In this document: piece after piece, positions 29,525 to 62,031 of the stretch
Layout: the number at the start of each line of letters is the position of its first letter
Position numbering within the stretch: the first letter of the stretch is position 1
Origin: Pseudooceanicola sp.
GTDB taxonomy: Bacteria; Pseudomonadota; Alphaproteobacteria; Rhodobacterales; Rhodobacteraceae
Assembly (NCBI RefSeq): GCF_029213205.1
Contig: NZ_JARGNH010000019.1
Location: forward strand, 1-64,000
Reading direction: 5' to 3'
DNA: 64,000 nucleotides
Made by a program: the position numbers and the translations under genes
Notes under the pieces: generated by a model
The model's input: the letters and a program-made list of their open reading frames with translations, nothing else
Database searches by the model: none
What the model was told of the DNA's origin: nothing

Positions 29525-29540
29525 TCTAACAAATGTTAGA
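29525..29540. promoter_or_regulatory. Operator copy 1 (TCTAAC-AAAT-GTTAGA) within a core promoter
   Basis: Perfect 6-bp inverted repeat with 4-bp spacer. A -35-like TTGACG lies at 29516-29521 and a weak -10 (GAAATA, 29539-29544) follows with 17-bp spacing, so the palindrome fills the promoter spacer, the position expected for a repressor. It precedes the DUF35/thiolase/MaoC operon. Three more copies lie at 32480, 50578 and 62016. Confidence 0.82.
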
Positions 29541-29592
29541 AATATTATCAATATGCTTAACCGCAAATTGGACCACTTGAAGGAGAACTGCG

Positions 29593-29970
29593 GTGCCGGA
29601 CGCCACAGGACCAGATCAGATTTTCCAGCGCGCATTGGCAAATGGAGAGATCTTGCTGCCTAAATGCAACGACTGCGGGGCCTATCACTTTTTCCCGAGA
29701 GTCCTGTGCCCACACTGTCATGGCGCCGCGATTTCGTGGGAGCGGGCGACCGGTGCGGGATCGGTCCACACCACAACCATCGTCCGTCGAAAACCTGAAC
29801 GTGGAGGCGACTACAACGTGTGCATGGTCGAACTGGAGGAAGGCGTCAGGATGATGAGCCGGGTCGAGGGAATATCCCCGGAAAACGTAGTCATCGACAT
29901 GGCGGTGACCGCCTTCGTGGGAGAGGCCGAGGGGGCCCCGGCCGTGCTTTTCAAACCGGCGGAGGCATAA
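29593..29970 (+). CDS. DUF35 zinc-ribbon/OB-fold protein (125 aa)
   Basis: Zinc ribbon CNDCGAYHFFPRVLCPHC (about residues 25-42) followed by an OB-fold ending LFKPAEA. The start is GTG at 29593 behind a strong AAGGAGAA. It lies 3 bp before a thiolase-like gene, the standard arrangement of DUF35-thiolase complexes (ChsH2/Ltp2, BbsA/BbsB). It probably stabilises the partner and forms part of its acyl-CoA channel. Confidence 0.9.
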   Translation: MPDATGPDQIFQRALANGEILLPKCNDCGAYHFFPRVLCPHCHGAAISWERATGAGSVHTTTIVRRKPERGGDYNVCMVELEEGVRMMSRVEGISPENVVIDMAVTAFVGEAEGAPAVLFKPAEA

Positions 29971-29973
29971 CGC

Positions 29974-31125
29974 ATGACCGATCGACTTCGGGGAAAATCC
30001 GCGATTGTCGGAACCGGGCACGCCGGTTTCGGTGAAGCGCACGGCCTGTCGGCCTATGATGTCATGGCGCAGTCCGCACTTGCCGCTCTGGACGATGCCG
30101 GGCTGAGGCTGTCCGACGTGGACGGCCTGTTCTGCACCATGATGGAAGACAGCATGCCGTCGCTGATGGCGGCGGAGTATCTGGGCATTCAGCCTCGCTT
30201 CATTGACGGCACCATGACGGGTGGTTCGTCCTTCGTGAATTACCTGACATCCGCGACCATGGCGCTTGACGCTGGTCTGTGTGATGTCGCGCTGATCGTG
30301 TATGGCTCCAATCAACGTACGGCGTCGGGCAAGCTGGTGACGGCCTCGCGCCCGCCGGCCTATGAGGCGCCATATAATCCACGCTATCCGATTTCCGCCT
30401 ATGCGATGGCGGCGGCGCGGCACATGCACGAATACGGTACCACACGCGAGCAATTGGCGGATGTGGCGGTCTCTGCGCGGGCCTGGGCGCGGCACAACCC
30501 CGAAGCGTTCGAACGCGGCCCGCTGACTCGCGAGGACGTGCTCGGCGCGCGCATGGTGGGCGATCCGCTGACGGTGCGCGATTGCTGCCTGGTGACCGAT
30601 GGCGGCGGCGCAATCGTGATGGTGCGGGCCGACCGCGCCAGGGATTTTCCAAAGGCACCAGTTTATGTACTGGGCAGTGCCGCGGCCAGCTCGCACCGGC
30701 AGATTTCGCAGATGAAGGATTTCACGGTCACCGCAGCCCGCGAGTCGGGCCAGCGCGCCTTTGCCGCGGCGGGGGTCGCGCCGGGTGATATCCAGGTGGT
30801 TGAACTCTACGATGCCTTCACCATCAACACGATCCTGTTCCTCGAAGACCTTGGCTTCTGTGCCAAGGGCGAGGGTGGCGCCCTTGTGGAAGGCGGGCAT
30901 ATCGCGCCGGACGGCATCCTGCCGGTGAATACAAACGGCGGCGGCCTGTCCTGTGTGCACCCCGGCATGTACGGTATTTTCACTGTGATCGAGGCCGCCC
31001 GCCAGATCCGTGGCGACGCGCCGGGTATGCAATTGAACAATATCGACCTGGCGCTGGCGCATGGCAATGGCGGTGTGCTGTCCAGCCAGGTCACGGCAAT
31101 TCTGGGGTCACAAAACACGCTCTGA
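29974..31125 (+). CDS. Thiolase-like protein of the Ltp2/SCP-x type (383 aa)
   Basis: Thiolase fold with AIVGTGHAGFGEAHG, VRDCCLVTDGGGAIVM, VVELYDAFTINTILFLED and LALAHGNGGVLSSQ. The nucleophilic Cys position reads TMTGGSSFVNYL, with no Cys, while the later NGGGLSCVHPG keeps a His. Such Cys-less members act as retro-aldolases (Ltp2) rather than thiolases. With the adjacent DUF35 protein and MaoC hydratase it forms a hydration plus retro-aldol cleavage unit like that used for branched or steroid side chains. Substrate is inference. Confidence 0.88.
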   Translation: MTDRLRGKSAIVGTGHAGFGEAHGLSAYDVMAQSALAALDDAGLRLSDVDGLFCTMMEDSMPSLMAAEYLGIQPRFIDGTMTGGSSFVNYLTSATMALDAGLCDVALIVYGSNQRTASGKLVTASRPPAYEAPYNPRYPISAYAMAAARHMHEYGTTREQLADVAVSARAWARHNPEAFERGPLTREDVLGARMVGDPLTVRDCCLVTDGGGAIVMVRADRARDFPKAPVYVLGSAAASSHRQISQMKDFTVTAARESGQRAFAAAGVAPGDIQVVELYDAFTINTILFLEDLGFCAKGEGGALVEGGHIAPDGILPVNTNGGGLSCVHPGMYGIFTVIEAARQIRGDAPGMQLNNIDLALAHGNGGVLSSQVTAILGSQNTL

Positions 31126-31148
31126 CGGCAATCAAGGGAGGAAAGATC

Positions 31149-32006
31149 ATGCCATTGGATTTCGAGGTACTTTCGAACTGGGACTTTGAGGAAATCGAAC
31201 AGACACTGACCGAGCGGGATACCATCCTTTATGCGCTCGGACTGGGGTTTGGCGAGGATCCGACTGACAAGAAAGAACTGGCCTATGTCTATGAGGACGG
31301 TCTCAAGGCGGTTCCCTCGATGGCGGTGACAATGGGGTATCCGGGCTTTTGGCTGGCCGATCCCAGGACCGGCGTGAACTGGCAAAAACTGCTGCACGGC
31401 GAGCAATGGCTGGACATCTACAAGCCGCTGCCGGTGAAGGGCCGGTTCATCGGTCGGAGCAAGATCGATTTCATCTCCGACAAGGGTGAGGGCAAGGGCG
31501 CCGTCATCTATCAGAGCCGCGACATTATCGACGCGGACAGCGGTGAAAAGCTCGCGCGCGTGGCGATGTCTGCCTTTTGCCGGGGCGACGGCGGGTTCGG
31601 CGGCGAAAACAAGCCCGGTCCCGCTCCCGCAGTGGTACCCGACCGCGCGCCGGATCATGTCTGCGATATCGAGACCATGCCGCGTCAGGCGCTGATCTAC
31701 CGCCTCAGCGGGGACTACAACCCGCTTCATGCGGACCCGGATGTTGCCCGCTCCGTCGGGTTCGAACGCCCGATCCTGCACGGTCTGGCAACCTATGGTC
31801 TGGCAGCGCGGGCGATCCTCAAGGCGTCGCTTGACTACGATGCCGCGCGGCTGGTCGGCCTGGATGTTCGGTTCTCCGCGCCGGTTTATCCAGGCGAAAC
31901 CGTACGGTTTGAAATCTGGGAGGAAGGTGGCGAGGCTCGCTTCCGCGCTTCGGTCCTGGAACGCGACGTTCTGGTTCTGAACAACGGAGCCGCGCGTTTC
32001 GCCTGA
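31149..32006 (+). CDS. MaoC-type enoyl-CoA hydratase 2, two hotdog domains (285 aa)
   Basis: Double-hotdog protein: an N-terminal non-catalytic half and a C-terminal half with the hydratase-2 motif YRLSGDYNPLHADPDVA (about residues 183-199) carrying the catalytic Asp/His pair, then GFERPILHGLATYG. This is the layout of peroxisomal MFE-2 hydratase and PhaJ-like (R)-specific enzymes. GGGAGGAAAG stands before ATG 31149. It would hydrate the enoyl-CoA that the neighbouring DUF35/thiolase-like pair then cleaves. Confidence 0.92.
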   Translation: MPLDFEVLSNWDFEEIEQTLTERDTILYALGLGFGEDPTDKKELAYVYEDGLKAVPSMAVTMGYPGFWLADPRTGVNWQKLLHGEQWLDIYKPLPVKGRFIGRSKIDFISDKGEGKGAVIYQSRDIIDADSGEKLARVAMSAFCRGDGGFGGENKPGPAPAVVPDRAPDHVCDIETMPRQALIYRLSGDYNPLHADPDVARSVGFERPILHGLATYGLAARAILKASLDYDAARLVGLDVRFSAPVYPGETVRFEIWEEGGEARFRASVLERDVLVLNNGAARFA

Positions 32007-32453: not shown

Positions 32454-32479
32454 TTGACGGGCAGGTTTCAAATCATTAA

Positions 32480-32495
32480 TCTAACAATCGTTAGA
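32480..32495. promoter_or_regulatory. Operator copy 2 (TCTAAC-AATC-GTTAGA) overlapping the -10
   Basis: Perfect 6-bp arms. TTGACG (32454-32459), a 17-bp spacer and TAATCT (32477-32482) form a good sigma-70-type promoter, and the palindrome covers the -10 and start site. It controls the operon 32511-38002, whose first ATG is only 15 bp downstream behind AGAGGGGGA. Confidence 0.85.
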
Positions 32496-32510: not shown

Positions 32511-33230
32511 ATGACGCAATCCAAAGACGACCTGCCGGTCGAAGCTGAGCGTTATGTCATGCCGGCGCGGTATGTCGATAGTGACAGCCTCGAAGTGCAG
32601 AGTTTTGTATCCTCGGCTTTGCGTGACCTCCCATCGGACGCCTCCAAACGCGACAAGGCGATCCGCTTGTTCGAAGCGGTGCGCGATGAAATCCGTTACG
32701 ATCCCTATTGCTTTGCGCTGGATAAAGATTCCTACCGTGCCAGCCGAATTGCCGGAGCGGAAGCGGCGTTTTGCGTGCCCAAGGCAATTCTTCTGGCGGC
32801 CTGCCTGCGGGCGGTGGGTATCCCCGCCGCACTGGGCTTTGCCGATGTGCGCAACCACCTGAATACGCCCAAGCTGCAAGAGCTGATGGGGACGGATCTG
32901 TTTATCTATCACGGCTACGTTCAATTGTGGCTGGACGGTGAGCCCTACAAGATCACGCCCGCGTTCAACATGGAGCTCTGTGAGCGATTCGGCGTCAAGC
33001 CGCTGGTCTTTGACGGCTATCACGATGCGCTCTTTCACGAGTTCGACGAACAGAACCATCGGCACATGGAATACGTGAACGACCGGGGGCTCTATTTCGA
33101 CGCGCCGATGGAGGAATTCCTGGGGGTCTTCAAGGAGACCTACCCGAAACTGGAAGAGTTCAACCGGGTACGCATTTCCAAGGACTCGACCGGGTATGAC
33201 TCCGGGTTCTCGAAGGAGGGCGCCTCTTGA
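32511..33230 (+). CDS. Transglutaminase-like domain protein (239 aa)
   Basis: Cys-protease-like transglutaminase core: catalytic Cys in AFCVPKAILLAACLRAVG (about residues 88-105) and His in IYHGYVQLWLDG (about 138-149). The third position, usually Asp in a DPT motif, reads KITPAFN here, as in a subgroup of these proteins. Function is unknown; hydrolysis or transfer on an amide or thioester is conceivable. It is first gene of a CoA-ester operon and ends overlapping the MaoC start (TTGA), so a role tied to acyl-CoA metabolism is suggested by context only. Confidence 0.8.
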   Translation: MTQSKDDLPVEAERYVMPARYVDSDSLEVQSFVSSALRDLPSDASKRDKAIRLFEAVRDEIRYDPYCFALDKDSYRASRIAGAEAAFCVPKAILLAACLRAVGIPAALGFADVRNHLNTPKLQELMGTDLFIYHGYVQLWLDGEPYKITPAFNMELCERFGVKPLVFDGYHDALFHEFDEQNHRHMEYVNDRGLYFDAPMEEFLGVFKETYPKLEEFNRVRISKDSTGYDSGFSKEGAS

Positions 33231-33676
33231 AGTATCTGGAGGACTTTGCGCCGGGCCAGGTGTTTCGCTTTAGCAGCGACCCGATGAGCAAGGAGGCGAT
33301 CATAGCCTTCGCCGAGGAGTGGGACCCGCAACAGCTGCACACCGACGAAGACTATGCGGCCACCGTGCACGGCAGCCTGATCGCCTCGGGCTTTCAGACA
33401 ATGCTTGAGGTGTTCAAGCCGATCATGACGGAGTTCATGGTTGGAATCGCCAATATCGGCGGCATCGGATTCGACAATCTGCGCTGGCACCGTCCCGTGC
33501 GTCCGGATGAACCCCTCGATATCGAATTGACGATCAACTCGGTCACGCCGTCAAAAAGCAAGCCCGACCGGGGTATCCTGCACTATACACTCAGCGCCAA
33601 GAACCCAAAGGGAGAAGTCGTTTTTTCGACCGACACCCCCGTGATGATACAGCGTAAACAAAATGACACAGACTGA
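33227..33676 (+). CDS. MaoC-like hotdog dehydratase (149 aa)
   Basis: Single hotdog with the hydratase motif EEWDPQQLHTDEDYA (about residues 25-39), Asp/His pair conserved, then ASGFQTMLE and GIGFDNLRWHRPVRP. Usual length for a single-domain MaoC (about 150 aa). TTG start at 33227 with GAAGGAGGG 4 bp upstream and overlapping the transglutaminase stop. It probably hydrates the enoyl-CoA produced by the next two FadE-like genes. Confidence 0.9.
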   Translation: MKYLEDFAPGQVFRFSSDPMSKEAIIAFAEEWDPQQLHTDEDYAATVHGSLIASGFQTMLEVFKPIMTEFMVGIANIGGIGFDNLRWHRPVRPDEPLDIELTINSVTPSKSKPDRGILHYTLSAKNPKGEVVFSTDTPVMIQRKQNDTD

Positions 33677-34787
33677 CATGACCTCCAGCGAACAAGACGA
33701 TCTTCGCCTGCTGCGCGAGAGTACCCGCACGCTTTTTGAGCGGGCTGGCGGCAGCGGACGCGCCCGAAAACTGCGCGATGCCGGTGGCAACTTTGACCCG
33801 GCGATGGTCCGCGAATTGGCCGAGGCCGGCGTTTTCGGCGTGACCGTGCCCGAAGAAAACGGCGGGCTCGGCATGGGCCTGGCCGCGGGCGGCGTCATTG
33901 CCGAAGAGGTTGGCCGGGTGATTGCCCCGGAACCCGTGGTGATGACGGTCGGGTTAAGCCTTGGCCTTTTGCGGCGCGTGTGCCCGGATCATCCGAAGAT
34001 GGCCCAATTGATCAGCGGTGACTCTGTCCTGGCGGTCGCCTGGCAGGAACGCGGTCCTGGCGGCGCGCCGGGCGAAGCGACATGTCGCTATGCGGACGGC
34101 AAGCTGACGGGCAGCAAGGCCTGGGTGGCCGGTGCGCCCGGGTCACAGGGGTTCCTTGTTGTGGCCGAGGGTGACAACGGGCCGGTTCTGGTCCTTGCAG
34201 ACGCCAGCGCAACCGGGCTTTCTGTCGACAAGCGTACACAGGCCGACGGCAGTTCCCTGGGCGAGCTCTCCTTTTCCGGAACCCCGGCGGAACAACTTGC
34301 CGAAGGCCCCGCAGTTCAAGACGCGCTCGCCGAGGCGATCAGCGATGCAACCGCCCTTGCCGCCGCCGAACTTGTCGGCCTGACCGACAGCGCTTTTGAC
34401 ATCACGCTCGACTACATCAAGACGCGGGAGCAGTTTGACAAGCCGATCGGGTCATTCCAGGCCATTCAGCACCGCGCCGTGGATTTGCATATCATGCGCG
34501 AAGTCGCGCAGGCGGGTGTCCGCGAAGTTCTGGCGCAGATGGACGCCGAAGCCGATCCCAAACGCCGCGCACAGCTGGCCAGTCGTGCCAAGGCGCGGGC
34601 CGTCACCGCCGCCAAAAAGATCACGCGCGACGCGATCCAAATGCATGGGGCGGTTGGGTATACCGACGAATATGACATCGGGCTTTACCTGAACCGGGCG
34701 CTGGTTTTGTCGGCCTGGCTGGGCGATGACGCCTATCACAGGCGGATTTGGTTCGATGCGCGCGAAGAAGAAGGAGCCGCACAATGA
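33663..34787 (+). CDS. Acyl-CoA dehydrogenase-like subunit without catalytic Glu (374 aa)
   Basis: ACAD fold with FGVTVPEENGGLGMG and the C-terminal MHGAVGYTDEYDIGLYLNRA. The catalytic base region has no EGT/S motif (ALVLSAWLGDDAYHRR), and the FAD-binding middle domain is shorter and divergent. It overlaps the MaoC gene at its start and the next dehydrogenase at its end. This matches heteromeric FadE pairs such as ChsE1/ChsE2, where one subunit supplies the base and the other completes the FAD site. Confidence 0.87.
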   Translation: MTQTDMTSSEQDDLRLLRESTRTLFERAGGSGRARKLRDAGGNFDPAMVRELAEAGVFGVTVPEENGGLGMGLAAGGVIAEEVGRVIAPEPVVMTVGLSLGLLRRVCPDHPKMAQLISGDSVLAVAWQERGPGGAPGEATCRYADGKLTGSKAWVAGAPGSQGFLVVAEGDNGPVLVLADASATGLSVDKRTQADGSSLGELSFSGTPAEQLAEGPAVQDALAEAISDATALAAAELVGLTDSAFDITLDYIKTREQFDKPIGSFQAIQHRAVDLHIMREVAQAGVREVLAQMDAEADPKRRAQLASRAKARAVTAAKKITRDAIQMHGAVGYTDEYDIGLYLNRALVLSAWLGDDAYHRRIWFDAREEEGAAQ

Positions 34788-35935
34788 CCGATTGGAACGC
34801 AATCAGCGATGCGGACTTCCGCAAAGAGGTGCGCGGGTTCTTTGAAGCCGAATATCCCGAAGAACTGCGCAATCTGTCACATCGTCCAAAGTTTGCCGAG
34901 ATTGAGCACTGGCATGTCAAGCTGCATGCCAAGGGCTGGGTTGCCCCGGCCTGGCCTGCGGAATTTGGCGGCATGGGGCTGAACGCGGCCAAACTGCTGA
35001 TTTTCTACGAAGAACAGCAGCGCTGGGGCGTGAACCGCGGACGGGACATGGGTATTCAGATGGTCGGCCCTCTGATCATCAAGTTCGGCACCCAGGAACA
35101 GAAAGACTATTGGCTGCCGCGTATTCTGAGTTGCGAAGACATCTGGTGTCAGGGCTATTCCGAACCCGGTGCCGGGTCAGACCTCGCCAACCTGCGCACA
35201 CGCGCGGAGATTGACGGCGACGACTTTGTCATCAACGGTCAGAAAATCTGGACCACGATGGCGCATGACGCGTCGCACATCTTTATGCTGGTGCGCACCG
35301 ATCCGGATGCGCCGAAGAAACAGCAGGGCATCAGTTTCCTTCTTGCGCCGATGGATCAGCCCGGCGTCGAGGTGCGTACGATCACAACCCTGTCGGGCGA
35401 GAAAGAGTTTTGCGAAGTGTTCTTCGACAGTGCCCGCGCGCCGAAGGAAAACCTGGTCGGCGAGCTGAACAAGGGCTGGACGATGGCCAAGGCGCTTTTG
35501 AGCTTCGAGCGCATTTTCATCGGAGCGCCGAACCTGGCCCAGAATGCTCTGGGACAGCTCGAAAGCTTTGCCCGTGGCCGTGGCGCCTTTGACGACCCGG
35601 TGTTCCGCGACCGCTTTGCGCAGGCGGCGCTCGACGTTGAGGATCACGCCGCGCTTTACACGCGTTTCGCCGATCAACTCAAGCGCGGCGAAACACTGGG
35701 CGCGGATGTCTCGATGCTCAAGATCTGGGTGACCGAGTGCTTCCAGCGCATCACCGAACTGATGATCGAGGCGGCAGGCCCGGATGGCGGCTCCATCGGG
35801 CCGCTGCAGGTCGGCAATGTCAGCGTCGACGTGTTGGCCAGCTTCTACAAGGCCCGACCGGGAACCATCTACGGCGGATCAAACGAAATCCAACGCAATA
35901 TCCTTTCCAAGGCCGTCCTCGGATTGCCTGGTTAA
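34784..35935 (+). CDS. Acyl-CoA dehydrogenase subunit (383 aa)
   Basis: ACAD with GYSEPGAGSDLANLRTRAE FAD motif, INGQKIWTTMAHDASH and C-terminal PGTIYGGSNEIQRNILSK, where GGS occupies the EGT position; the base in this branch is elsewhere in the fold (by analogy with IVD-type or ChsE-type enzymes). ATG 34784 overlaps the previous stop (ATGA). Together the two genes probably make an alpha2beta2 dehydrogenase acting on bulky acyl-CoA. Confidence 0.9.
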   Translation: MTDWNAISDADFRKEVRGFFEAEYPEELRNLSHRPKFAEIEHWHVKLHAKGWVAPAWPAEFGGMGLNAAKLLIFYEEQQRWGVNRGRDMGIQMVGPLIIKFGTQEQKDYWLPRILSCEDIWCQGYSEPGAGSDLANLRTRAEIDGDDFVINGQKIWTTMAHDASHIFMLVRTDPDAPKKQQGISFLLAPMDQPGVEVRTITTLSGEKEFCEVFFDSARAPKENLVGELNKGWTMAKALLSFERIFIGAPNLAQNALGQLESFARGRGAFDDPVFRDRFAQAALDVEDHAALYTRFADQLKRGETLGADVSMLKIWVTECFQRITELMIEAAGPDGGSIGPLQVGNVSVDVLASFYKARPGTIYGGSNEIQRNILSKAVLGLPG

Positions 35936-35968
35936 ACCCACAACAATATCAAGTGAAGGAACAGAAAT

Positions 35969-36778
35969 ATGTCGGACCGTTACGCAAAATACGACAAGTT
36001 GAAATTCGACTATCCGGCGGATCGCGTTCTGCGCATCACGTTCGACCGGCCCGAGACGTTGAATTCCGTTGATGCGGAAACCCACACCCAGATGACGGAT
36101 ATGTGGGTCGACATCGACCGCGACCCCGATATCAACGCGGTGATCGTGACCGGCGCGGGCAAGGCGTTTTCGGCGGGCGGCGATTTCAGCCTGATCGAAA
36201 ACATGATGGGCAACTCGTACGAAATCATGAAGACGTGGAAAGAGGCCAAGGGTCTCGTCTACAACATCATCAACTGCAACAAGCCGATCATTTCCGCGAT
36301 CAATGGCCCGGCGGCGGGCGCTGGCCTTGTCGTGGCGCTCCTCGCCGACATCTCGATCGCCGGCAAGAAAGCCAAGATCGTCGATGGCCACCCGCGCCTG
36401 GGTGTCGCCGCCGGTGACGTCGCGGCGATCATCTGGCCGCTGCTGACATCGATGGCCAAGGCGAAATACTACCTGATGACCTGCAAGCCGGTGTCCGGCG
36501 AAGAAGCTGAACGCATCGGTCTGGTGTCGATGTGTGTCGAGGACGAAGAGCTGCAGAAAATCGCTTTGGACACGGCTGTCGATCTGGCCAATGGTTCGCA
36601 AAGCGCGATCCGCTGGACCAAGTATTCGCTGAACAACTGGCTGCGCCAGGCTGGCCCGATCTTTGACGCGTCGACCGCGCTGGAGATGCTTGGCTTCATG
36701 GGTGAGGACGTCAAGGAAGGTGTGCTGTCGCACCGCGAAAAGCGGGCTCCCAACTTCCGCAAGGACTGCCCGCTTTAA
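35969..36778 (+). CDS. Enoyl-CoA hydratase/isomerase family protein (269 aa)
   Basis: Crotonase with [15 protein letters not shown] oxyanion loop and [20 protein letters not shown]. Both usual Glu positions are non-acidic ([17 protein letters not shown]), so hydration is unlikely; the pattern is a distinct large crotonase clade often found in such CoA clusters. GAAGGAACAG precedes ATG 35969. Position between a FadE pair and a PaaK-like gene suggests a lyase or hydrolase step, but this is inference. Confidence 0.88.
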
Positions 36779-36805
36779 ACCCCGACGGCTCAAGGAGGCA
36801 TGAAC

Positions 36806-49639: not shown

Positions 49640-49643
49640 CCCG

Positions 49644-50593: not shown

Positions 50594-50618
50594 AATTTTC
50601 GTCAACAACTGAATCTGA

Positions 50619-51120: not shown

Positions 51121-51915
51121 TCAGGTTGCTCCGGGACCGGAGGTTTCGAGGATCTCCTGCTCGGCGCGCTGCCACAATTCAAAGGAAATCGGGTTTTCGC
51201 TTTCCTCCAGGATATGCCCAACCAGCCCGATAGCCCGCGCCATGACGCCAAAACCGCGCACGATCTTCCAGGGGAAGCCGAATTCGCAGCAGATCGCGCC
51301 AATCGCACCAGTGGCGTTGATCGGCAGCATCTTGCCCGACTTTTCCTCGGCGACGACCTGAATTTTCTGGATCAATTCGATGTATTCACCGGATTTGCCG
51401 TTCTCGGCTGCAATTTCGAACAGGCGCGGGGTGCGCGGATCGACCGGTTTGTGCACCGGATGACCCAGCCCCGGCACGATGGTCTTTTTGGCGCGGAACT
51501 TCTCGACCGTTTCCAAGGCAATCGCATCCAGATCAGCGCCAGTGCCCAGTTTTTCCTCGGGCAGCGCCTCATAGAGCATCTTCGATGCGCCTTCCATGGA
51601 GCCGACAAACACCGTGCCCAAACCACATAGGCCAGCCGCGACAGCCGCCTGAAGCGATTCCGGTGCGCCCATATAGGTCATGCGCGCGGCCATGGCCGAG
51701 GGGGTGATCCCGTGTTCGACCAGGGTGATCACGATGGCATTGAAGACGCGACTTTCCTCGGGCGTGGCCTTGCGACCCGTCAGTTGCAGAAAGGCCAGAT
51801 CGCCCAGGTTCATGTGGCCCAGAATCTCGTTCGGCAGGTCGAGCCCGCGCACGTTGATTTGGTCGGGGGTGCTCCAGCCGATCTTCGAGCTGATTTTTTT
51901 CTTGCGCTTACCCAT
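51121..51915 (-). CDS. Citrate synthase/citryl-CoA lyase-like protein (264 aa)
   Basis: Matches the citrate-synthase fold in its short form related to the C-terminal domain of ATP-citrate lyase: GITPSAMAARMTYMGAPESL, catalytic His region VPGLGHPVHKPVDPRTPRLF, and WKIVRGFGVMARAIGLVGHI. Being about 264 aa it lacks the large N-terminal domain of citrate synthase. Cleavage or formation of a 3-hydroxy-3-carboxyacyl-CoA is likely. TGATG overlap with the SDR gene upstream fixes the start at 51915. Confidence 0.87.
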   Translation of the reverse strand: MGKRKKKISSKIGWSTPDQINVRGLDLPNEILGHMNLGDLAFLQLTGRKATPEESRVFNAIVITLVEHGITPSAMAARMTYMGAPESLQAAVAAGLCGLGTVFVGSMEGASKMLYEALPEEKLGTGADLDAIALETVEKFRAKKTIVPGLGHPVHKPVDPRTPRLFEIAAENGKSGEYIELIQKIQVVAEEKSGKMLPINATGAIGAICCEFGFPWKIVRGFGVMARAIGLVGHILEESENPISFELWQRAEQEILETSGPGAT

Positions 51916-52829: not shown

Positions 52830-52841
52830 TTTCGTCCTCCC

Positions 52842-53801: not shown

Positions 53802-53805
53802 GTTG

Positions 53806-55812
53806 TCACTCCTCGGACGGAAGAATCTCGGCGATGACCTGGCCGCGATCGACCATGTCCCCATTCGAGACTGTGATATTGCTGGCTGTGCCGGCGGCGG
53901 TGGCGCGGATCGATATTTCGAGCTTCATCGATTCCATGACTGCGATCACGTCGCCTTCGGAAATCAATTGCCCGTCGCTGACCTTGACCTCGACAATCAT
54001 GCCGGTCAGCGGAGAAGTCACGGCACGATCCGCCGCCGCGTCACCACCCGCAAAGGCCAGCGGTGCCGCCGGGCGGTAGACAAGGCGGCCTGTTGGCGTG
54101 TCCAGTTCGATCACCCCGGCATGCAGCCGCGCGTCGATCAGATAGACGTCATCGCCTTCGCCCAACTGCCAGCGGCCCGGTGTGATTTCCCGCGCGGTCA
54201 GAGTGATCGCCTCGCCATCTTCGGAGCGCACGGTGTATCGGCTGCCCGGTTTGACCGGCCCGACGCGCAACTCTTCAGAGTCTCCGCCCGCGTCGGTCAG
54301 CGTCACGCGTTGCCCCGCTTCGAGCGGATCGCCGCCGAGACCGAGGCGCCAACCGGTGAATGTGTCGCGATTGCGCCAAGGGTCCGGGCTGTGATCGCAC
54401 CGGTTTGAGGCCACAAAAAGAACAGCCGCCGCCGCCTTCCAAAGGTTGGAGCGGTCGGGCGCACCGGCCTGCGTCAACGTGTCGAGCCTGCCGTCGATCC
54501 AGCGGGTGTGAACCTGCATCTGTTCGAATTCAGGGTCGCGCGCCAGTGCCGTCAGAAAGGCGCGGTTGGTTTGCACACCTTCCACCGCAACGTGTTCCAA
54601 AGCGGTCGCCAGCCGCGCCAATGCGGTCTCCCGGTCGGGCGCATGAACGATCAGCTTGGCGATCATCGGATCGTAATAGGGCGTCACCGCGTCGCCTTCT
54701 TCGACGCCACTGTCGATGCGCAGACCTTCCGGCAGGCTTAGCGTGGTCAAGGTGCCGGTTGAGGGGGCGAATTGCATCGCCGGATCCTCGGCATATAGCC
54801 GTGCCTCGACCGCGTGGCCGTTGATCTTCAGGTCATCCTGCACCAGGCCAAGGCCCGCGCCTTCGGCAATGCGCAGATGCAGCGCAACGAGGTCCAGCCC
54901 GGTGATCGCCTCGGTGACGGGGTGTTCCACCTGAATGCGGGGGTTCACCTCAAGAAAGAAGTAATCCTCGCCCGCGACCAGAAATTCGACCGTGCCCAGC
55001 CCGCGATAGTCAAGCGTTTCGCCCAGGCGCACCGCGTCATGCGCGATCTCGTCCAGCAGCGCGCGGGGCAGGCCCCAGGCCGGGGCCTCTTCGATGACCT
55101 TCTGGTGGCGGCGCTGAAGCGTGCAGTCGCGTTCGAACAGATGCACCACATGGCCCTTGCCGTCGCCCGCGATCTGCACCTCGACATGGCGCGCTTCTGG
55201 CAGGAAACGTTCCAACAGCAGACCTTCGGAGCCAAAGGTGGACTTTGCCTCGCGCAGCGCGCCTTCGATGTCTTCCACAAGGGTGGATTCATCGGTGACA
55301 AGCCGCTGGCCGCGCCCGCCACCGCCGCCGACGGCCTTGAGCAGGACCGGCAGGCCCATCGCGCGGACCTCATCGGCAATCTGCTGGGGATCGGACCGCG
55401 CACCTTCCGCTCCCGAAATCACCGGGACGCTGGCAGCCACGGCCGCCGCTTTGGCGCTGGCCTTGTCGCCGAAACGGTCAAGCGTGTCCGGCGTCGGCCC
55501 CATGAAGATCATGCCGACGGCTTCGACCGCCCGGGCGAACTCGGAGTTTTCGGCCAGAAAGCCATAACCGGGATGGATCGCATCCGCGCCGACCGATTGC
55601 GCGGCGGCAATCACCGCGTCGATTTTCAGATAGCTCTCGGAGGCTGGACCGGCGCCGATGCAGACGGAATGTCCGATCTCGCGGACATGCAGCGCATTGG
55701 CATCGGCCTCAGAATGCACGCCGACAGGGGTGATGCCGCTGGCCCGCGCGGTGCGCGCGATCCGGCAGGCAATTTCGCCGCGATTGGCGATGAGAAGCGT
55801 TTTGATTTTCAT
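53806..55812 (-). CDS. Acyl-CoA carboxylase, biotin carboxylase + BCCP subunit (668 aa)
   Basis: N-terminal biotin carboxylase (LLIANRGEIACRIARTAR, HPGYGFLAENSEFA, ATP-grasp AVGGGGGRGQRLV, EVNPRIQVEHPVTE), a linker domain, and a C-terminal biotinyl domain with VMESMKLE (Lys near residue 630). Length and order match the alpha subunit of methylcrotonyl-, geranyl- or propionyl-CoA carboxylases. With the beta subunit next door it carboxylates a 2-enoyl-CoA or acyl-CoA using bicarbonate and ATP. Confidence 0.94.
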   Translation of the reverse strand: MKIKTLLIANRGEIACRIARTARASGITPVGVHSEADANALHVREIGHSVCIGAGPASESYLKIDAVIAAAQSVGADAIHPGYGFLAENSEFARAVEAVGMIFMGPTPDTLDRFGDKASAKAAAVAASVPVISGAEGARSDPQQIADEVRAMGLPVLLKAVGGGGGRGQRLVTDESTLVEDIEGALREAKSTFGSEGLLLERFLPEARHVEVQIAGDGKGHVVHLFERDCTLQRRHQKVIEEAPAWGLPRALLDEIAHDAVRLGETLDYRGLGTVEFLVAGEDYFFLEVNPRIQVEHPVTEAITGLDLVALHLRIAEGAGLGLVQDDLKINGHAVEARLYAEDPAMQFAPSTGTLTTLSLPEGLRIDSGVEEGDAVTPYYDPMIAKLIVHAPDRETALARLATALEHVAVEGVQTNRAFLTALARDPEFEQMQVHTRWIDGRLDTLTQAGAPDRSNLWKAAAAVLFVASNRCDHSPDPWRNRDTFTGWRLGLGGDPLEAGQRVTLTDAGGDSEELRVGPVKPGSRYTVRSEDGEAITLTAREITPGRWQLGEGDDVYLIDARLHAGVIELDTPTGRLVYRPAAPLAFAGGDAAADRAVTSPLTGMIVEVKVSDGQLISEGDVIAVMESMKLEISIRATAAGTASNITVSNGDMVDRGQVIAEILPSEE

Positions 55813-55822
55813 TGCTCGCGCC

Positions 55823-57430
55823 TCACATCCTGAACACGCCGAAATTGGTTTCGACCTTGGCTCTGCGCGAGGTCACATCCAGCATCAGCGCCATGACATC
55901 GCGGGTCTCACACGGCTCGATCACGCTGTCGATCCAGAGGTTGGAGGCGAAATTATAGGCCCCTTGAAAATTCTCGTATTCCTTGCGGATCGGCGCCTTG
56001 AAAGCTTCCTCCTCCTCTGGGGTCCAGCTTTTACCCTCGCGCTCGTTGATCTGCGCGCGGACCTGCGCCAGCACGCTGGCGGCCTGTTCCGGGCCCATGA
56101 TCGCGGAGCGGCCCGTAGGCCAGGCGAACATCGCGTCCGGTTGGAACGGACGGCCCAGCATCGCCAGATATCCGGCCCCGTAGGAGCCGCCGGTGATAAT
56201 GGTGAACTTTGGCACCCGGGCCGAGGACATCGCGGTGATCATCTTGGCACCGGCCTTGGCGATGCCCATCTGCTCGACCTCGCGGCCGACCATGAAGCCG
56301 TTCACATCGGCCAGGAACAGCAGCGGAATATCGCGCTGGACGCAGAGGTTGATAAAATGCGTGGCCTTCAGCGCGGCCTCGACAAAGAGCACCCCGGTGT
56401 TGGCGATGATGCCGACTTCGTGGCCGTTGATGCGGCCCCAGCCGGTCATGATCGTGTCACCATAAAGCGGCTTGAATTCGTGAAAATCGCTGTCGTCCAC
56501 CAGCCGAGCAACAATTTCACGGTTGTCGGTCGGCACCTTGGGATCGCGGCTGACAAGGCCATAGATTTCCTCGACCGGATAGGCCGGCTCGCGCGGCGTC
56601 GCAGGCGTTTTGCGCGACTGGGGCTTTTCGCCCAGATGGCTGACGATATCGCGGGTGATGGCCAAAGCGTGGGCGTCATCTTCGGCCAAATGGTCGGTCA
56701 CACCGGAAACGGACGAATGCATCTTGCCGCCGCCCAGTTCTTCGGCTTCAACCTTTTCACCGGTTGCGGCAAAGGTCAGTTCCGGCCCACCAAGATACAT
56801 GAAGCCCTGACCGCGCACGATCACCACCTCGTCGCAAAGCGCCGGGATATAGGCGCCGCCCGCCGTGCAGGGCCCCATGACCACCGCGATCTGCGGCACA
56901 CCGTCACCCGACATGCCGATCTGCTGATGGAAGATCGAACCGAACTGGCCTTCGTCGGGAAAGATATTTTCCTGATCCGGCAGAAACGCGCCGCCGGAAT
57001 CGACCAGCGTGATCACCGGAAGGCGGTTCTTCCAGGCGATTTTCTGGGCGCGCACATGCTTGCGGCAGGTCATGCCGAAATAGGTGCCACCCTTCACGGT
57101 GGCATCATTGGCGATGATCATGCACTGACGGCCCTCGATCACCCCGATGCCGGTGATGATGCCTGCCCCCGGCGGCACGCCGTCATATTTGTTCAGCCCG
57201 GCAAGTTCGCCCAGTTCCAGAAAAGGCGTGCCAGGATCGATCAGCCGTTCGATCCGCTCACGCGGCAGGATCTTGCCTTTCGACACATGCCGGTCCCGCG
57301 CCTTTTCCGGGCCACCGACACGTTGTTGCAGGCGAAGGGCATGCAGTTCGGCGATCTTTTCGCGATACCGCGCGTCGTTTTCCCGAAAGTCGTCGGACCC
57401 GGTGTCGAGGAGAGATTTCATTTTTGTCAT
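55823..57430 (-). CDS. Acyl-CoA carboxylase, carboxyltransferase beta subunit (535 aa)
   Basis: Carboxyltransferase with GGTYFGMTCRKHVRAQKIA, LVDSGGAFLPDQENIFPDEG and GGSYGAGYLAMLGRPFQPD. The SGGAFLPDQ segment is the pattern of methylcrotonyl-CoA/geranyl-CoA carboxylases rather than propionyl-CoA carboxylase. 535 aa is the usual MCC-beta length. ATG 57430 overlaps the PaaK-like stop (ATGA), and the alpha subunit follows after 10 bp. Confidence 0.94.
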   Translation of the reverse strand: MTKMKSLLDTGSDDFRENDARYREKIAELHALRLQQRVGGPEKARDRHVSKGKILPRERIERLIDPGTPFLELGELAGLNKYDGVPPGAGIITGIGVIEGRQCMIIANDATVKGGTYFGMTCRKHVRAQKIAWKNRLPVITLVDSGGAFLPDQENIFPDEGQFGSIFHQQIGMSGDGVPQIAVVMGPCTAGGAYIPALCDEVVIVRGQGFMYLGGPELTFAATGEKVEAEELGGGKMHSSVSGVTDHLAEDDAHALAITRDIVSHLGEKPQSRKTPATPREPAYPVEEIYGLVSRDPKVPTDNREIVARLVDDSDFHEFKPLYGDTIMTGWGRINGHEVGIIANTGVLFVEAALKATHFINLCVQRDIPLLFLADVNGFMVGREVEQMGIAKAGAKMITAMSSARVPKFTIITGGSYGAGYLAMLGRPFQPDAMFAWPTGRSAIMGPEQAASVLAQVRAQINEREGKSWTPEEEEAFKAPIRKEYENFQGAYNFASNLWIDSVIEPCETRDVMALMLDVTSRRAKVETNFGVFRM

Positions 57431-58818
57431 GGCAGGTCGGGGTATTCTCTCAGAACGAAGGCGACCTTGGCGGCGCCAGGTTTTTCGAAAGTGTCAGGCG
57501 CGACCAGATGCACGTCGGCCTTGAAGACAAGAGCATCGCGCAGGCGCTGTTCAATTTTCTTCTTGAGGGCGTCGTCATCGACCGGATCGCGACCGGGGCC
57601 GCGTTCGACGATCACCGTCAGCGCGCCTTGGGTCGTATGGCCTTCGAAATCGGCCACGATACGCATGACGCCGTTGGTGTCCGGCACCATTTCGATGATC
57701 ACGCTGTTGATCGCCGACGGGAACACATTGGCGCCGCGCACGATCAGCATGTCGTCGGTCCGACCGGTGCAGCGGATCTTCGGGCCGGTGCGCCCGCAGG
57801 TGCATTCGGTGTCGATGACCTCGATATAATCGCCAGAGCGGAACCGTACGACGGGGCTGGCCTGACGGCCGAGCGCCGTATAGATCATCTCGCCTTCGGC
57901 GCCCTTTTCCCAGGGAATGATCTTGCCACTTTCGGGATCAAGCAGTTCGGTGATGATGTAGTCCATGTTGACCATATGCATCCCCGACTGGGCATCGCAT
58001 TCGGCCCAGTAGGTCACACCCAGATCGGTGCCGCCCAGCATTTCACAACATTTGGCACCCCAGGCCGCCTCGATCTTGGCCCGAATGGCCGGGATGCCGC
58101 CACCGGGCTCGCCACCGACGATCACCTGCTCGACGCCCAGCTCGGTGGCCTTGCAGCCAAGCACCTCCGGCGCTTTCTCCGCCAGGTGCAGAACGAAATT
58201 CGGGGCGCCCACGATGCAGCGCGGGCGCGTGTCGGCGCAGGCGCGCAGCAGCCGTTCCGCGCCGCCATCGGCCCCCACCGGCACGTCGATTGCGCCCATG
58301 TACTGCAAACCCTGCATCACCGGAATGCCGCCGACAAAGCCTTTGGCCAGCGCAAACGCATGCAGCACCATATCACCGGGCCGCACACCGTTGGCAAAGA
58401 AACAGCGCGCGGTCATCTCGTGCCACATTTCGGTATCGGCCTCGGTCAGCGCCACATAGGACGGGCTGCCGGTGGTGCCGGACGAGGCCTGCATCTGGAT
58501 GATGTCCGCCATCGGCGCGGCCCGGTGTTTGCCGAAAGGCGGCTCCGCGGCAAGGCTTTCGCGGATTTCGGTCTTGTAGGTGAAGGGCAGCTTCTGCAGG
58601 TCTTCGATGGTGCGGATGTCGTCGAAATCCACACCGGCCTCAGCGAACTTCTCTTGATAGAAGGTCGAGTTCACCTTGAGATAGGCCATCTGCTCGCGCA
58701 GCCGCTCTTCCTGAATGCGGCGCACTTCGTCGAGCGGCGTGCCCTCGATCTCGTGCCAGAAGCGATCGTTCACCTTGTCGGCGGCGTCCTGCCGCCGGAA
58801 GCGCATTCCAAATTGCAT
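57427..58818 (-). CDS. Phenylacetate-CoA ligase family (PaaK-like) protein (463 aa)
   Basis: Complete PaaK-type ligase with LPFTYKTEIRESL, P-loop QASSGTTGSPSYVALT (about residues 108-123), MLGGTDLGVTYWAE, FRSGDYIEVID and RTDDMLIVRGANVFPSAIN. In contrast to the relative at 36806 the P-loop is intact, so ATP-dependent acyl-CoA formation is expected. GGGAGGAC before ATG 58818 fixes the start. Substrate could be an aromatic or a partly degraded alicyclic acid. Confidence 0.92.
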   Translation of the reverse strand: MQFGMRFRRQDAADKVNDRFWHEIEGTPLDEVRRIQEERLREQMAYLKVNSTFYQEKFAEAGVDFDDIRTIEDLQKLPFTYKTEIRESLAAEPPFGKHRAAPMADIIQMQASSGTTGSPSYVALTEADTEMWHEMTARCFFANGVRPGDMVLHAFALAKGFVGGIPVMQGLQYMGAIDVPVGADGGAERLLRACADTRPRCIVGAPNFVLHLAEKAPEVLGCKATELGVEQVIVGGEPGGGIPAIRAKIEAAWGAKCCEMLGGTDLGVTYWAECDAQSGMHMVNMDYIITELLDPESGKIIPWEKGAEGEMIYTALGRQASPVVRFRSGDYIEVIDTECTCGRTGPKIRCTGRTDDMLIVRGANVFPSAINSVIIEMVPDTNGVMRIVADFEGHTTQGALTVIVERGPGRDPVDDDALKKKIEQRLRDALVFKADVHLVAPDTFEKPGAAKVAFVLREYPDLP

Positions 58819-58844
58819 GTTGTCCTCCCTTCCGGGCCGCGCGT

Positions 58845-60005
58845 TCAGTAGGAGCGCGGCAGGCCCATGACCTTTTCGCCGATAAAGCTGAGGCACAGCT
58901 CGCGGTTCACGGGTGCCGTCCGCAGCAGTCGCACCAGCGGGTACATTTCGTAAAGCCCCGTATCTTCGGTAAAGCCCGATCCGCCATGGGCCTGAAGCGC
59001 GGCGTCCACGGCCTCGATCCCGGCTTCGGCGGCGGCGTATTTGGCCATGTTCGAAGACGCCCCCGCAGGCAGCTTGTTGTCAAACTCCCATGCCGCGCGA
59101 CGGGTCATCAGGCTGGCCATCTCAACCGCTGTATGCGCCTTGGCCATCGGATGCTGCACACCTTGGTGCGCGCCGATGGGCTGATCGAATACGTTGCGCT
59201 CGGAGGCATAGGCCACGCCCTTGTTCAGCGCGAACCGTCCGATGCCGCAGCAGAGCGCGCCTAGGATGATGCGCTCGGGGTTGAGGCTGTCGAACAGGAT
59301 CGAGAACCCTTCATCAACCTCGCCGACCACGTCCTCGGGGCCCAGATCGACCTCGTCAAAGAACAGGGTCCACTGTTCCTCAGGCAGGGGGATCGAGATC
59401 TTCACCCGCTGTTTGTCGACACCCTTTTTCTTCAGATCGACGGCAAAGAGGGTAAAGCCGTCAGTCTTGCGACTGACCTCGGTATGCGGCTTGGTCCGTG
59501 CCACCACCAGACAATAATCCGACACCTCGGCCCCGGTGATAAAGGTCTTTTCCCCCGACAGGCTGAACCGGTTGCCCCGGCGCTTGGCCAGCGTGGTGGC
59601 CTTCATCGTGTTCGACCCGGCGCCCGGTTCGGTGATCGCAAAACAGAACTGGATCTCGCCGCGACAGGCGGCCGGCAGCAGCTCTTTCTTGTGGAATTCG
59701 GTGCCGTGGCTGGCGAGGTGGGCCAGCGACATGGTCGGTCCCACCACCATCATCAGAAGCGGGATGCCGTGATTGGCGGTGCCTTCCATGAACAGGGCCA
59801 TTTCGGTCATGCCAAGGCCGGCGCCGCCGTATTCTTCGGGCACCATGATCCCCAAGAAGCCATCATCGGCAATTTGTTGGAACATCTCCCTGGGGAATTC
59901 GTGCCTGCGGGCGTGATCCAGCCAATAGGCATTGTCGTATTTCTGCGCCAATTGTCCGCCGTAGGCGTAAATCTGGCGCTGTTCGTCGTTTAAAGTGAAA
60001 TCCAT
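58845..60005 (-). CDS. Acyl-CoA dehydrogenase, AP-x-x-E branch (386 aa)
   Basis: ACAD with LGIMVPEEYGGAGLGMTE, CFAITEPGAGSNTMKAT and LSGEKTFITGAEVSDY. The C-terminus reads RTAPVNRELCLSFIGEKVMG, so the usual EGT/S base motif is replaced by the APVNRE variant known from a subgroup of CoA dehydrogenases found with carnitine or bile-acid-like pathways. Full length. Lies 26 bp before the PaaK-like gene in the leftward operon. Confidence 0.92.
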   Translation of the reverse strand: MDFTLNDEQRQIYAYGGQLAQKYDNAYWLDHARRHEFPREMFQQIADDGFLGIMVPEEYGGAGLGMTEMALFMEGTANHGIPLLMMVVGPTMSLAHLASHGTEFHKKELLPAACRGEIQFCFAITEPGAGSNTMKATTLAKRRGNRFSLSGEKTFITGAEVSDYCLVVARTKPHTEVSRKTDGFTLFAVDLKKKGVDKQRVKISIPLPEEQWTLFFDEVDLGPEDVVGEVDEGFSILFDSLNPERIILGALCCGIGRFALNKGVAYASERNVFDQPIGAHQGVQHPMAKAHTAVEMASLMTRRAAWEFDNKLPAGASSNMAKYAAAEAGIEAVDAALQAHGGSGFTEDTGLYEMYPLVRLLRTAPVNRELCLSFIGEKVMGLPRSY

Positions 60006-60014
60006 GGTTCTTCC

Positions 60015-60794
60015 TCAACCCTTGAAAGCGGGTTTGCGCCGGTTCTCGAACGCGTCGAGCCCTTCGGCGACGTCATCGCCAGGCAGTGCGCGCACGGCGG
60101 CGTCACGCTCCAACCGCATTTGCTGGTCAATGCCGAGATCCGCACCTTCCCGTGCCAGCCGCTTCATCTCGGCAATGCCATGACGCGAGCGGGTGGCGAT
60201 CTTCTGGCAGTATTCCAGCGCGGCCTTGTGCAGATCCGCATCCGGCACGATGTAATTGACCAGACCGGCCTCTTTGGCCTCGCCCGCTTCAAGCCAGCGG
60301 GCTGAGAACATCAGGTCAAGCGCCCGGCGCTGCCCCATCAACCGCGTCAGCCGTTGCGAGCCGCCCCAGCCCGGGATCAGCCCGAACTGGGCGTGCTGAT
60401 CGCCAAATTGGGCGGTTTCGGCCGCAAAGCACACATCGCATGCCAGCATCAGTTCGATCCCACCGGCCAGACACAACCCCTGCACCGCCACGACAACAGG
60501 GAGGGAGGAGGTTTCGAGCGCACGCAGGTTGTTCATGCCAAAGGCGATGAAATGGTCCAGCGCGGCGGGATCGTTCAGTTTGCCTTTCACTTCAGTCAGA
60601 TCTGCACCGGTGCAAAAGTGCTTGCCTCGCGCCCGGATCAGGATCGACCGGATGTTCCGGTCGGCCTCGAACCTGACGCGCGCAGCAGAGATGCACTCGT
60701 GAACCTGCAGTGACAGGCAATTCAATTTCTCGGGGCGGGCCAGCTCGATGATGCCAACGTTGCCTTCGGTACTTACGGCGACTGGATCACTCAT
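60015..60794 (-). CDS. Enoyl-CoA hydratase family protein (259 aa)
   Basis: Crotonase with FCTGADLTEVKG and AGGIELMLACDVCFA (first catalytic Glu present), while the second position reads GDQHAQFGLIPGWGG without Glu. FEANRRKPAFKG-type C-terminus. Its ATG overlaps the stop of the upstream dehydrogenase (60791-60794). In a pathway with an MCC-like carboxylase it could be the hydratase acting on the carboxylated enoyl-CoA; that is inference. Confidence 0.9.
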   Translation of the reverse strand: MSDPVAVSTEGNVGIIELARPEKLNCLSLQVHECISAARVRFEADRNIRSILIRARGKHFCTGADLTEVKGKLNDPAALDHFIAFGMNNLRALETSSLPVVVAVQGLCLAGGIELMLACDVCFAAETAQFGDQHAQFGLIPGWGGSQRLTRLMGQRRALDLMFSARWLEAGEAKEAGLVNYIVPDADLHKAALEYCQKIATRSRHGIAEMKRLAREGADLGIDQQMRLERDAAVRALPGDDVAEGLDAFENRRKPAFKG

Positions 60795-61972
60795 TTCGAT
60801 GCTCCCTTCGCTTTCTTGTCGTACTGCAGCGCCATCCGCCCGACCTTCTCACGGGCGATCACAAGCTTCTGGATTTGCGCAGTGCCATCACCGATCTGCA
60901 GACCAAGCACATCGTTATAGCGCTGGTGGTGCGGCAGGTCGGTGGTGTAGCCGTAATGTCCGTGCAGGATCAGACACTGGTGCAGGATTTCACAAGCCGT
61001 CTTGGGCAGGTACCATTTGCACATTGCCGCCTGCGAAGTGTGGGGCAGGCCACGGTCGCGCAAATCCAGCGTGTAGTAGCAAAGCTGACGCATCATGGTC
61101 AGCTGGGTTTCGGCCTCGGCCAGCGGAAAGCTGACGCCCTGATATTGCACGATGGGCGCGCCGAATGCCTCGCGTTCCTGGACATAGGCCCAGGTTTCAT
61201 CCACTGACGCCTGCGCCGTGCCGAGGCATTCCAGCCCGATCAGCGCGCGGGAATAGTCGAACCCCGCCATGATCGTGCCAAAGGCGCGGTCCTGTTCGGC
61301 CATCATGTTTTCGGCCGGTACAAATACGTCGTCGAAAAACACCGATCCGCGCCCGACGGGCTTGGTGCCGATGTCGTCGAAATGGGTGCGCTTGATTCCG
61401 TCCTGATTGAGATCGACGAAAAAGGCGCTGACCCCGCGTGCGCCACCATCAGGATCGCCGGTGCGGGCAAAGACCACCGCCGCGTCGGCCTGGCTGGCAA
61501 AGCTCATGGATGTCTTTTCACCGTTCAGCCGCCAGCCGTTGCCGGATTTTTCGGCCTTCAGGATCAGGTTCGCCGCATCCGAGCCGCCGCGCGGCTCGGT
61601 CAGGCCCAGGCCGATGACCGCATCACCCGACACCACCTTGGGCACCCATTCCGAGGCAATATCCTTGGAGGCGTGCTTGGCGACCATGCCGCCCATGAGC
61701 GAGCCCAGAAGCTGCACATAGCTGGCGTTGAAATCGGCATAGGCGATCTCTTCGACGATAAGCCCCGACGTCACCGAGCTTTCGCCAAGCCCGCCGAATT
61801 CTTCGGGCAAATCGGCACCGATCAGGCCGAGCGCGCCCATCTCCTTGATCAGCGTTCGATCAAAGGTGTGACTGCTGGCGCGCTCCAGGTAGCTGGACGC
61901 CAGCTTTTCTGTTGCGAATCGCTTTGCGGTTTCGCGAAAAGCCTTTTGATCTTCTGTTGGCTGGAATTGCAT
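60791..61972 (-). CDS. Acyl-CoA dehydrogenase with Asp at the base position (393 aa)
   Basis: ACAD with LGLTEPRGGSDAANLILKAE, LNGEKTSMSFASQADAAVV and LHGHYGYTTDLPHHQRY. The base motif reads IGDGTAQIQKLVIAREK, with Asp in place of Glu as in 38294-39460. GGGGAGGAGCG before ATG 61972. First gene of the leftward operon that runs through hydratase, dehydrogenase, PaaK-like ligase, carboxylase, lyases and SDR. Confidence 0.92.
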   Translation of the reverse strand: MQFQPTEDQKAFRETAKRFATEKLASSYLERASSHTFDRTLIKEMGALGLIGADLPEEFGGLGESSVTSGLIVEEIAYADFNASYVQLLGSLMGGMVAKHASKDIASEWVPKVVSGDAVIGLGLTEPRGGSDAANLILKAEKSGNGWRLNGEKTSMSFASQADAAVVFARTGDPDGGARGVSAFFVDLNQDGIKRTHFDDIGTKPVGRGSVFFDDVFVPAENMMAEQDRAFGTIMAGFDYSRALIGLECLGTAQASVDETWAYVQEREAFGAPIVQYQGVSFPLAEAETQLTMMRQLCYYTLDLRDRGLPHTSQAAMCKWYLPKTACEILHQCLILHGHYGYTTDLPHHQRYNDVLGLQIGDGTAQIQKLVIAREKVGRMALQYDKKAKGASK

Positions 61973-62015
61973 CGGCGCTCCTCCCCATGACCGAAAATAT
62001 GTTCTTCCCCAAAAA

Positions 62016-62031
62016 TCTAACAAATGTTAGA
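62016..62031. promoter_or_regulatory. Operator copy 4 (TCTAAC-AAAT-GTTAGA) between divergent operons
   Basis: Identical in all 16 bases to copy 1. On the leftward strand TTGATC, 17 bp and TAGATT frame it as a core promoter for the dehydrogenase/carboxylase operon. It lies 38 bp before the rightward flavoenzyme gene, so one site could control both directions. Confidence 0.85.

Follow-up and report, generated by a model that had tools for sequence, protein, structure and literature searches.

In the 64,000-nucleotide stretch of Pseudooceanicola sp. analysed here (assembly GCF_029213205.1, contig NZ_JARGNH010000019.1, positions 1 to 64,000; hereafter the window), copies of the palindrome TCTAAC-N4-GTTAGA stand ahead of import and catabolic operons, and we conclude that this palindrome is very probably the operator of a tandem TetR-family repressor of about 440 amino acids that carries two full TetR units in each chain (the double TetR). 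The case is a comparative one, combining conservation of the sites, co-occurrence of regulator and site among genomes, a site upstream of the regulator gene itself, the paired TetR units and a predicted model that resembles Mce3R. No publication on this double TetR or its operator was among the matches listed in our literature searches, which were weighted to open-access journals.

An earlier note on this DNA had reported four copies of the palindrome, one of them with an outer mismatch, and had taken copies 1 and 4 for the same 16-mer; both statements hold (Table 1), and the regulon span that it gave as 35 kb measures 32.5 kb. Across the whole genome (G000; 3.69 Mb, 60 contigs) there are three exact palindromes, all within the window, and seven at one mismatch or fewer: the four in the window plus C1:2511, C6:1262 and C6:1340. 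The note had named frequent occurrence in non-promoter DNA as what would refute its reading; our genome-wide scan instead places all seven sites between genes, given ATG starts at 32511, 61972 (minus strand) and 62069. The longest open frames at these genes would overlap two sites, and shorter ATG starts were adopted instead; annotated relatives likewise start the genes at 61972 (minus) and 62069 outside the palindrome. On contig C1 (3.7 kb), the site lies between an acyl-coenzyme A (CoA) dehydrogenase gene pair and an enoyl-CoA hydratase gene; after the hydratase gene comes an AtuA-type fragment, named by position and reading, that has no NCBIfam match. Contig C6 (3.3 kb) carries its two sites in the gap that separates a lipid-transfer-type thiolase gene from a hexapeptide-type gene, and a carboxyltransferase gene lies further on. 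The sites on both contigs thus stand beside genes similar to those of the window. The regulon is wider than the note stated.

Table 1. Proposed operators, possible -35 elements and genes of the window
Feature	Position	Strand	Basis or remark
Proposed operator 1	29525..29540		TCTAACAAATGTTAGA, exact; upstream of the DUF35-thiolase-MaoC operon
Proposed operator 2	32480..32495		TCTAACAATCGTTAGA, exact; upstream of the transglutaminase-like/MaoC/FadE-pair/enoyl-CoA hydratase/PaaK-like-ligase operon
Proposed operator 3	50578..50593		ACTAACAACCGTTAGA, one outer mismatch; upstream of the Liv-type ATP-binding cassette (ABC) importer operon
Proposed operator 4	62016..62031		TCTAACAAATGTTAGA, exact; between the divergent acyl-CoA dehydrogenase/carboxylase operon (-) and the old yellow enzyme (OYE)/2,4-dienoyl-CoA reductase gene (+)
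TTGACG, possible -35 at operator 1	29516..29521	+	Sequence; no good -10 found
TTGACG, possible -35 at operator 2	32454..32459	+	Sequence
TTGACG, possible -35 at operator 3	50600..50605	-	Sequence
Short-chain dehydrogenase/reductase (SDR) gene, cut by contig end	1..617	+	P. atlanticus relative divergent from double-TetR gene across a palindrome
AMP-binding ligase, NmrA-like, AraC-type helix-turn-helix, 4HBT thioesterase (+), flavodoxin (-)	732..5382		Pfam
DUF35/ChsH2-like OB protein, SCP-x-type thiolase, MaoC/MFE-2-type hydratase	29593..32006	+	Pfam, NCBIfam, PDB relatives
Transglutaminase-like, MaoC, FadE pair, enoyl-CoA hydratase, PaaK-like ligase	32511..38002	+	Pfam, NCBIfam
LivG, FadD11-like ligase, LivH, LivM, LivK, LivF, SDR	42758..50450	-	Pfam, NCBIfam
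Citryl-CoA-lyase-like, SDR, 3-hydroxy-3-methylglutaryl-CoA (HMG-CoA)-lyase-like, biotin carboxylase, carboxyltransferase, PaaK-like ligase, two acyl-CoA dehydrogenases, enoyl-CoA hydratase	51121..61972	-	Pfam, NCBIfam, PDB relatives
OYE/2,4-dienoyl-CoA-reductase-like flavoenzyme, extends beyond window end	62069..64000	+	Pfam, NCBIfam

The regulator emerges from co-occurrence. In a survey of 295 genomes of the family, with the double TetR called at E<=1e-80 and at most 5 candidates scored per genome, it is present in eight, and the same eight are those with at least four exact palindromes (4-6 each); of the others, 277 have no palindrome, nine have one, and our own genome has three and no protein match (Fisher 8e-16 over the 294 genomes other than G000). 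Of 39 relatives, seven have 5-6 exact palindromes each, two have a single one and the others have none; a match to the double TetR at E<1e-200 is found only in those seven, the next best match in a genome without it being a single TetR at 2e-43. In the three of these seven that were inspected, a palindrome lies shortly upstream of the double-TetR start. A scan of named genomes yielded 158 double-TetR loci, the best 80 of which were kept (68 distinct proteins, near copies included), and a palindrome with at most one mismatch lies 33-108 bp ahead of the matched start in 78 of the 80, distances being taken to the point where the tblastn match begins rather than to a confirmed start codon. Of the remaining two loci, one is from Acidocella (L160) and the other, from Marinobacter (L148), has its gene truncated by the end of a contig. 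Every locus has at least one palindrome and 71 have at least two; in total there are 184 sites at one mismatch or fewer against 0 for the backward pattern, and 90 exact sites against 0 for each of 20 permuted half-sites. By sequence, a putative palindromic operator stands at the double TetR's own promoter and at its proposed target promoters.

These loci also refine the operator. In 118 distinct site contexts, from which sites near locus ends were left out and in which only flanks and spacer are informative because selection was at one mismatch or fewer, A is favored at -2 (97%), as are R after the first half and Y before the second half, giving an extended consensus of AW-TCTAAC-R-NN-Y-GTTAGA. 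In an operator class that lies about 6.3 kb downstream, ahead of the acyl-CoA dehydrogenase pair, 32 of 33 distinct copies are altered in the same half (TCAAAC...GTTAGA), and a repressor with two different halves could exploit such a site. A second group of double TetRs (L163, L165 and L167; about 55-56% identical) has a one-mismatch palindrome, TCTAACATCTGTTTGA, at -108 and another at -5910. Other frames of 417-468 amino acids in relatives (L081, L084, L085 and others) align weakly (22-27%) across both double-TetR halves, and further double TetRs may exist in this class.

The sites themselves are conserved within the genus. We aligned the promoters with those of Pseudooceanicola batsensis (G002), P. 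atlanticus (G014) and Pseudooceanicola sp. SP158 (G012), using three genomes for the importer promoter and four for the other three. All 12 core positions are invariant at each operator, compared with 50 of 145 other columns at operator 1, 34 of 115 at operator 2, 69 of 273 at operator 3 and 40 of 101 at operator 4, a contrast that is exaggerated by end gaps among the other columns. The outer mismatch of operator 3 is itself conserved in its three genomes. SP158 retains most of the gene order between 29593 and 62069, differing in CaiB-type genes and in a wider gap ahead of the citryl-CoA lyase gene; in P. batsensis and P. atlanticus the order survives in blocks. The earlier proposal that import, activation and degradation are joined in one regulon gains support from this comparison across genomes, in which sites are conserved and motif load tracks one regulator.

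By its domains, the protein falls in the TetR/AcrR family, with a helix-turn-helix TetR_N and a TetR-type C-terminal domain; in the three double TetRs scanned, Pfam finds TetR_N and TetR_C_24 once in each half. Almost all of 79 aligned proteins have recognition helices ending in AGS[IVL]YYHF, with deviations in the first half of L097 and in the second half of L160, and the halves of a protein are 38-51% identical to each other in a structure alignment of 46 of the 67 distinct proteins of 400 amino acids or more. A model predicted as a monomer without DNA (pLDDT 86.9, pTM 0.86) has as its best PDB fold Mce3R, the double TetR repressor of mycobacterial lipid genes (9b7y; PMC11667970), over 433 columns (TM 0.66/0.73, root-mean-square deviation 6.2, 17% identity). 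Because Mce3R is reported, in the passages of PMC11667970 that we cite, to use the two helix-turn-helix units of a single chain for DNA binding, we envision one chain per palindrome: the chain would fold into an intramolecular pseudo-dimer whose two helix-turn-helix units sit on the half-sites TCTAAC and GTTAGA. Bound repressor would block RNA polymerase at the import, activation, beta-oxidation and carboxylation promoters and at its own gene, and a CoA-thioester of the pathway would probably bind the C-terminal domains and release the protein from DNA. A CoA-thioester is our best guess for the inducer because single TetRs whose PDB titles name bound isovaleryl-CoA (AibR) or acyl-CoA (FadR) rank among the next folds.

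As for the promoters, the earlier note had every palindrome overlying a core promoter spaced by 17 bp, with TTGACG at three. The three TTGACG elements are there (Table 1), whereas the 17-bp geometry at every palindrome is not supported: a scan with the sigma-70 consensus gave no correctly directed promoter-like pair at any of the four sites, its single match at 29525 lying on the opposite strand. TTGACG at operator 2 is kept in four of four genomes, TTGAC upstream of operator 1 recurs in three relatives, and at operator 3 TTGA, though not the full TTGACG, is kept in two. TTGACG beside three operators makes polymerase blocking plausible, although the consensus scan found no promoter pair.

Several observations weigh against the double TetR as the reader of the palindrome. 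Its gene was not found in the assembly of our strain; part of the co-occurrence may stem from joint inheritance of the whole cluster, and near copies are included among the 80 loci; and one of the eight double-TetR genes of the family carries an in-frame TGA (G098). A single palindrome occurs in nine family genomes in which the protein was not found; in five it is the same 16-mer, TCTAACATATGTTAGA (G022 (L069, G022:C2 188085), G114, G204, G286 and G302), and in G022 this lone site precedes the gene of an ordinary single TetR. The same palindrome may serve other, unrelated TetRs elsewhere. Within the 20 kb surrounding the lone sites of G022 and G023, no gene of the cluster was found at 38% identity or more. 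Closer to home, some relatives encode in the cluster a single TetR whose helix ends IKAGSIYYHF, almost that of the double TetR, and which might read the palindrome as an ordinary homodimer, alone or with the double TetR. The P. batsensis protein is 37% identical to the double TetR's second half, and the P. atlanticus gene lies downstream of a gene run that begins at a palindrome. We nevertheless consider this unlikely, given the palindrome upstream of the double-TetR gene in nearly all of the loci; SP158, with six exact sites, also has no close single-TetR match among those listed, but that genome is 77% complete and its contig ends before the region.

Readers encoded in the window itself, namely the single TetR at 7722-8348, the AraC-type protein at 3489-4235 or the sigma-54 activator at 17018-18739, are near the operons, and two plasmids retain an AraC/helix-turn-helix gene close to the double TetR, yet we give any of them very little credence. 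The window TetR was rejected, having a different helix (TKAALYYHY), no adjoining palindrome at two mismatches or fewer and a tree position separate from the double TetRs. AraC sites are usually not perfect palindromes, which counts against the AraC-type protein, and no match to rpoN (E 1e-20, at least 50% cover, at least 38% identity) was found in the loci of three relatives that keep the palindrome, the activator itself not having been searched there. That the palindromes arose by chance, or are hairpin elements without a regulator, might be suggested by the last point on the opposing side: the backward pattern gives 9 matches at one mismatch or fewer and 127 at two or fewer in our genome, where the real pattern gives 7 and 29. 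Near-matches of the palindrome as such are not enriched in the genome, and because the backward pattern is equally frequent at one mismatch, we do not build the case on near-match counts. Exact copies number three for the real pattern and none for the backward one, and in the window 12 matches at up to 3 mismatches compare with a shuffle mean of 5.5, with 1 of 100 shuffles reaching 12. Against chance stand the intergenic position of all seven sites, the invariance at four promoters and the co-occurrence with one protein, and we regard this explanation as close to untenable.

The double TetR, which we favor as reader, is probably encoded in our strain just beyond the left end of the contig, because positions 1-572 match the regulator's divergent neighbor in P. 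atlanticus (contig C7, 44428-44999; 89% at the DNA level). Projected from the P. atlanticus start codon, the gene would be expected about 270 bases left of base 1. The same order of SDR and double-TetR genes is found in Roseovarius indicus, and the window genes up to 5382 are of the same families, in the same order, as the regulator-side block of that species. The assembly is broken in this region, as shown by contigs C1 and C6, which carry genes that in relatives lie on the regulator's other side. Just past 5382, a frame of 126 amino acids (5599-5979, minus strand) corresponds to only the C-terminal part of an AMP-binding ligase, whose gene in R. indicus is complete and flanked by those for flavodoxin and dienoyl-CoA reductase; this remnant is a possible rearrangement point.

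The proposed targets combine a Liv-type importer (whose genes we take to be LivG, H, M, K and F individually), CoA ligases, acyl-CoA dehydrogenases, hydratases, a DUF35/SCP-x-type thiolase pair, and HMG-CoA-lyase-like and citryl-CoA-lyase-like enzymes. Not all catabolic genes of the window seem to answer to this one repressor, because the operon at 20386-29431 has no palindrome at two mismatches or fewer and sits behind sigma-54-type promoter matches. The sigma-54 activator gene (minus strand) adjoins an rpoN gene (plus strand) within 17018-20325, and exact -24/-12 matches lie at 18813, before rpoN, and at 20432, inside the longest frame of a CaiB gene and hence ahead of a later start. At one mismatch or fewer the window has four such matches against a shuffle mean of 1.2, and the region 17018-20447 is possibly a small sigma-54 circuit.

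Because of the carboxyltransferase's relatives and an AtuA-family gene in annotated plasmid clusters, we favor beta-methyl-branched, isoprenoid-like substrates, and our best guess for the pathway is the breakdown of methyl-branched, isoprenoid-like acyl-CoAs. In the PDB the window carboxyltransferase comes closest to AccD1 and to a chain bearing the label propionyl-CoA carboxylase (9tps); methylcrotonyl-CoA carboxylases score nearly as well, geranyl-CoA carboxylase follows, and other propionyl-CoA carboxylases are far weaker; the C6 carboxyltransferase is nearest to methylcrotonyl-CoA carboxylases. The finding supplies a candidate regulator, operator and target list for a catabolic cluster, and the question of its substrate becomes testable.

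The regulon occurs on plasmids predicted to be conjugative. Relatives of the double TetR are found on 42 plasmid records (36 at 60-80% identity, 13 predicted conjugative; 21 from Pseudosulfitobacter and 3 from Rhodococcus), whose hosts are mostly marine and partly algae-associated, and also on contigs of Rhodobacterales, Hyphomicrobiales and others. On contig C38, at about 64489-68000 (L018 2490-6001), the translations read as ParB-like, ParA-like and DnaA-like replication proteins, which suggests an extrachromosomal replicon. In a tree of the halves of 15 of the 46 aligned proteins, with the single TetR L078 and Mce3R left out, a supported clade (97/95) takes in 12 of the 15 first halves from Alphaproteobacteria, the other three being unresolved at the base of that clade, and support for a grouping of the 15 second halves is weak (84/89). 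In the Rhodococcus double TetR the two halves are each other's closest partners (100/99), which suggests a separate fusion, but the program warns of the long branches involved. A tentative picture, which we raise as a possibility, is that alphaproteobacterial single-chain TetR pseudo-dimers, fused apart from actinobacterial ones, control a plasmid-borne regulon for isoprenoid-type catabolism, with distinct halves that may each keep a ligand pocket and a half-site preference of their own. Distinct preferences would account for the operator class in which one particular half is changed.

Among known systems, AibR, FadR and KstR2 resemble the double TetR in that the halves of its model match their folds; they differ in having one TetR unit per chain. 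The PDB titles of AibR and FadR give acyl-CoA-bound structures, a model for the inducer here. Plasmid pRB98 of Rhodococcus oxybenzonivorans likewise has a double TetR near HMG-CoA lyase, acyl-CoA dehydrogenase, CaiB, OB-fold and thiolase genes, but that protein is 31% identical and has other palindromes upstream (adjacent CTAATC/GATTAG; L178 7684-7712). AtuR and RdmA are TetR repressors of acyclic terpene utilisation (PMC9973270) and, like the double TetR, TetR-type repressors of a cluster with AtuA-type genes and a carboxylase; an AtuA-family gene together with a biotin-dependent carboxylase, as in the AtuR regulon, is annotated in the cluster on two plasmids. Their operator, as given in the cited part of that paper (AGCAAGCGCTTGG / CCAAGCGCTTGCT), is unrelated to TCTAAC-N4-GTTAGA, and AtuR, considered as reader on account of the AtuA-like gene, was rejected because its published operator, AGCAAGCGCTTGG, differs from our sites. 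Mce3R shares with the double TetR the two TetR units in one chain, as modeled here, and, according to the cited passages of PMC11667970, a lipid-related regulon that includes its own gene. The same passages describe Mce3R sites as nonpalindromic and 25 bp long and give Mce3R one ligand-binding domain. Here the site is palindromic, and TetR_C_24 is matched in both halves, a possible difference in ligand binding as well. Being a naturally fused repressor with a simple palindromic site, the double TetR could be set against Mce3R in studies of how such proteins recognize DNA and respond to ligands.

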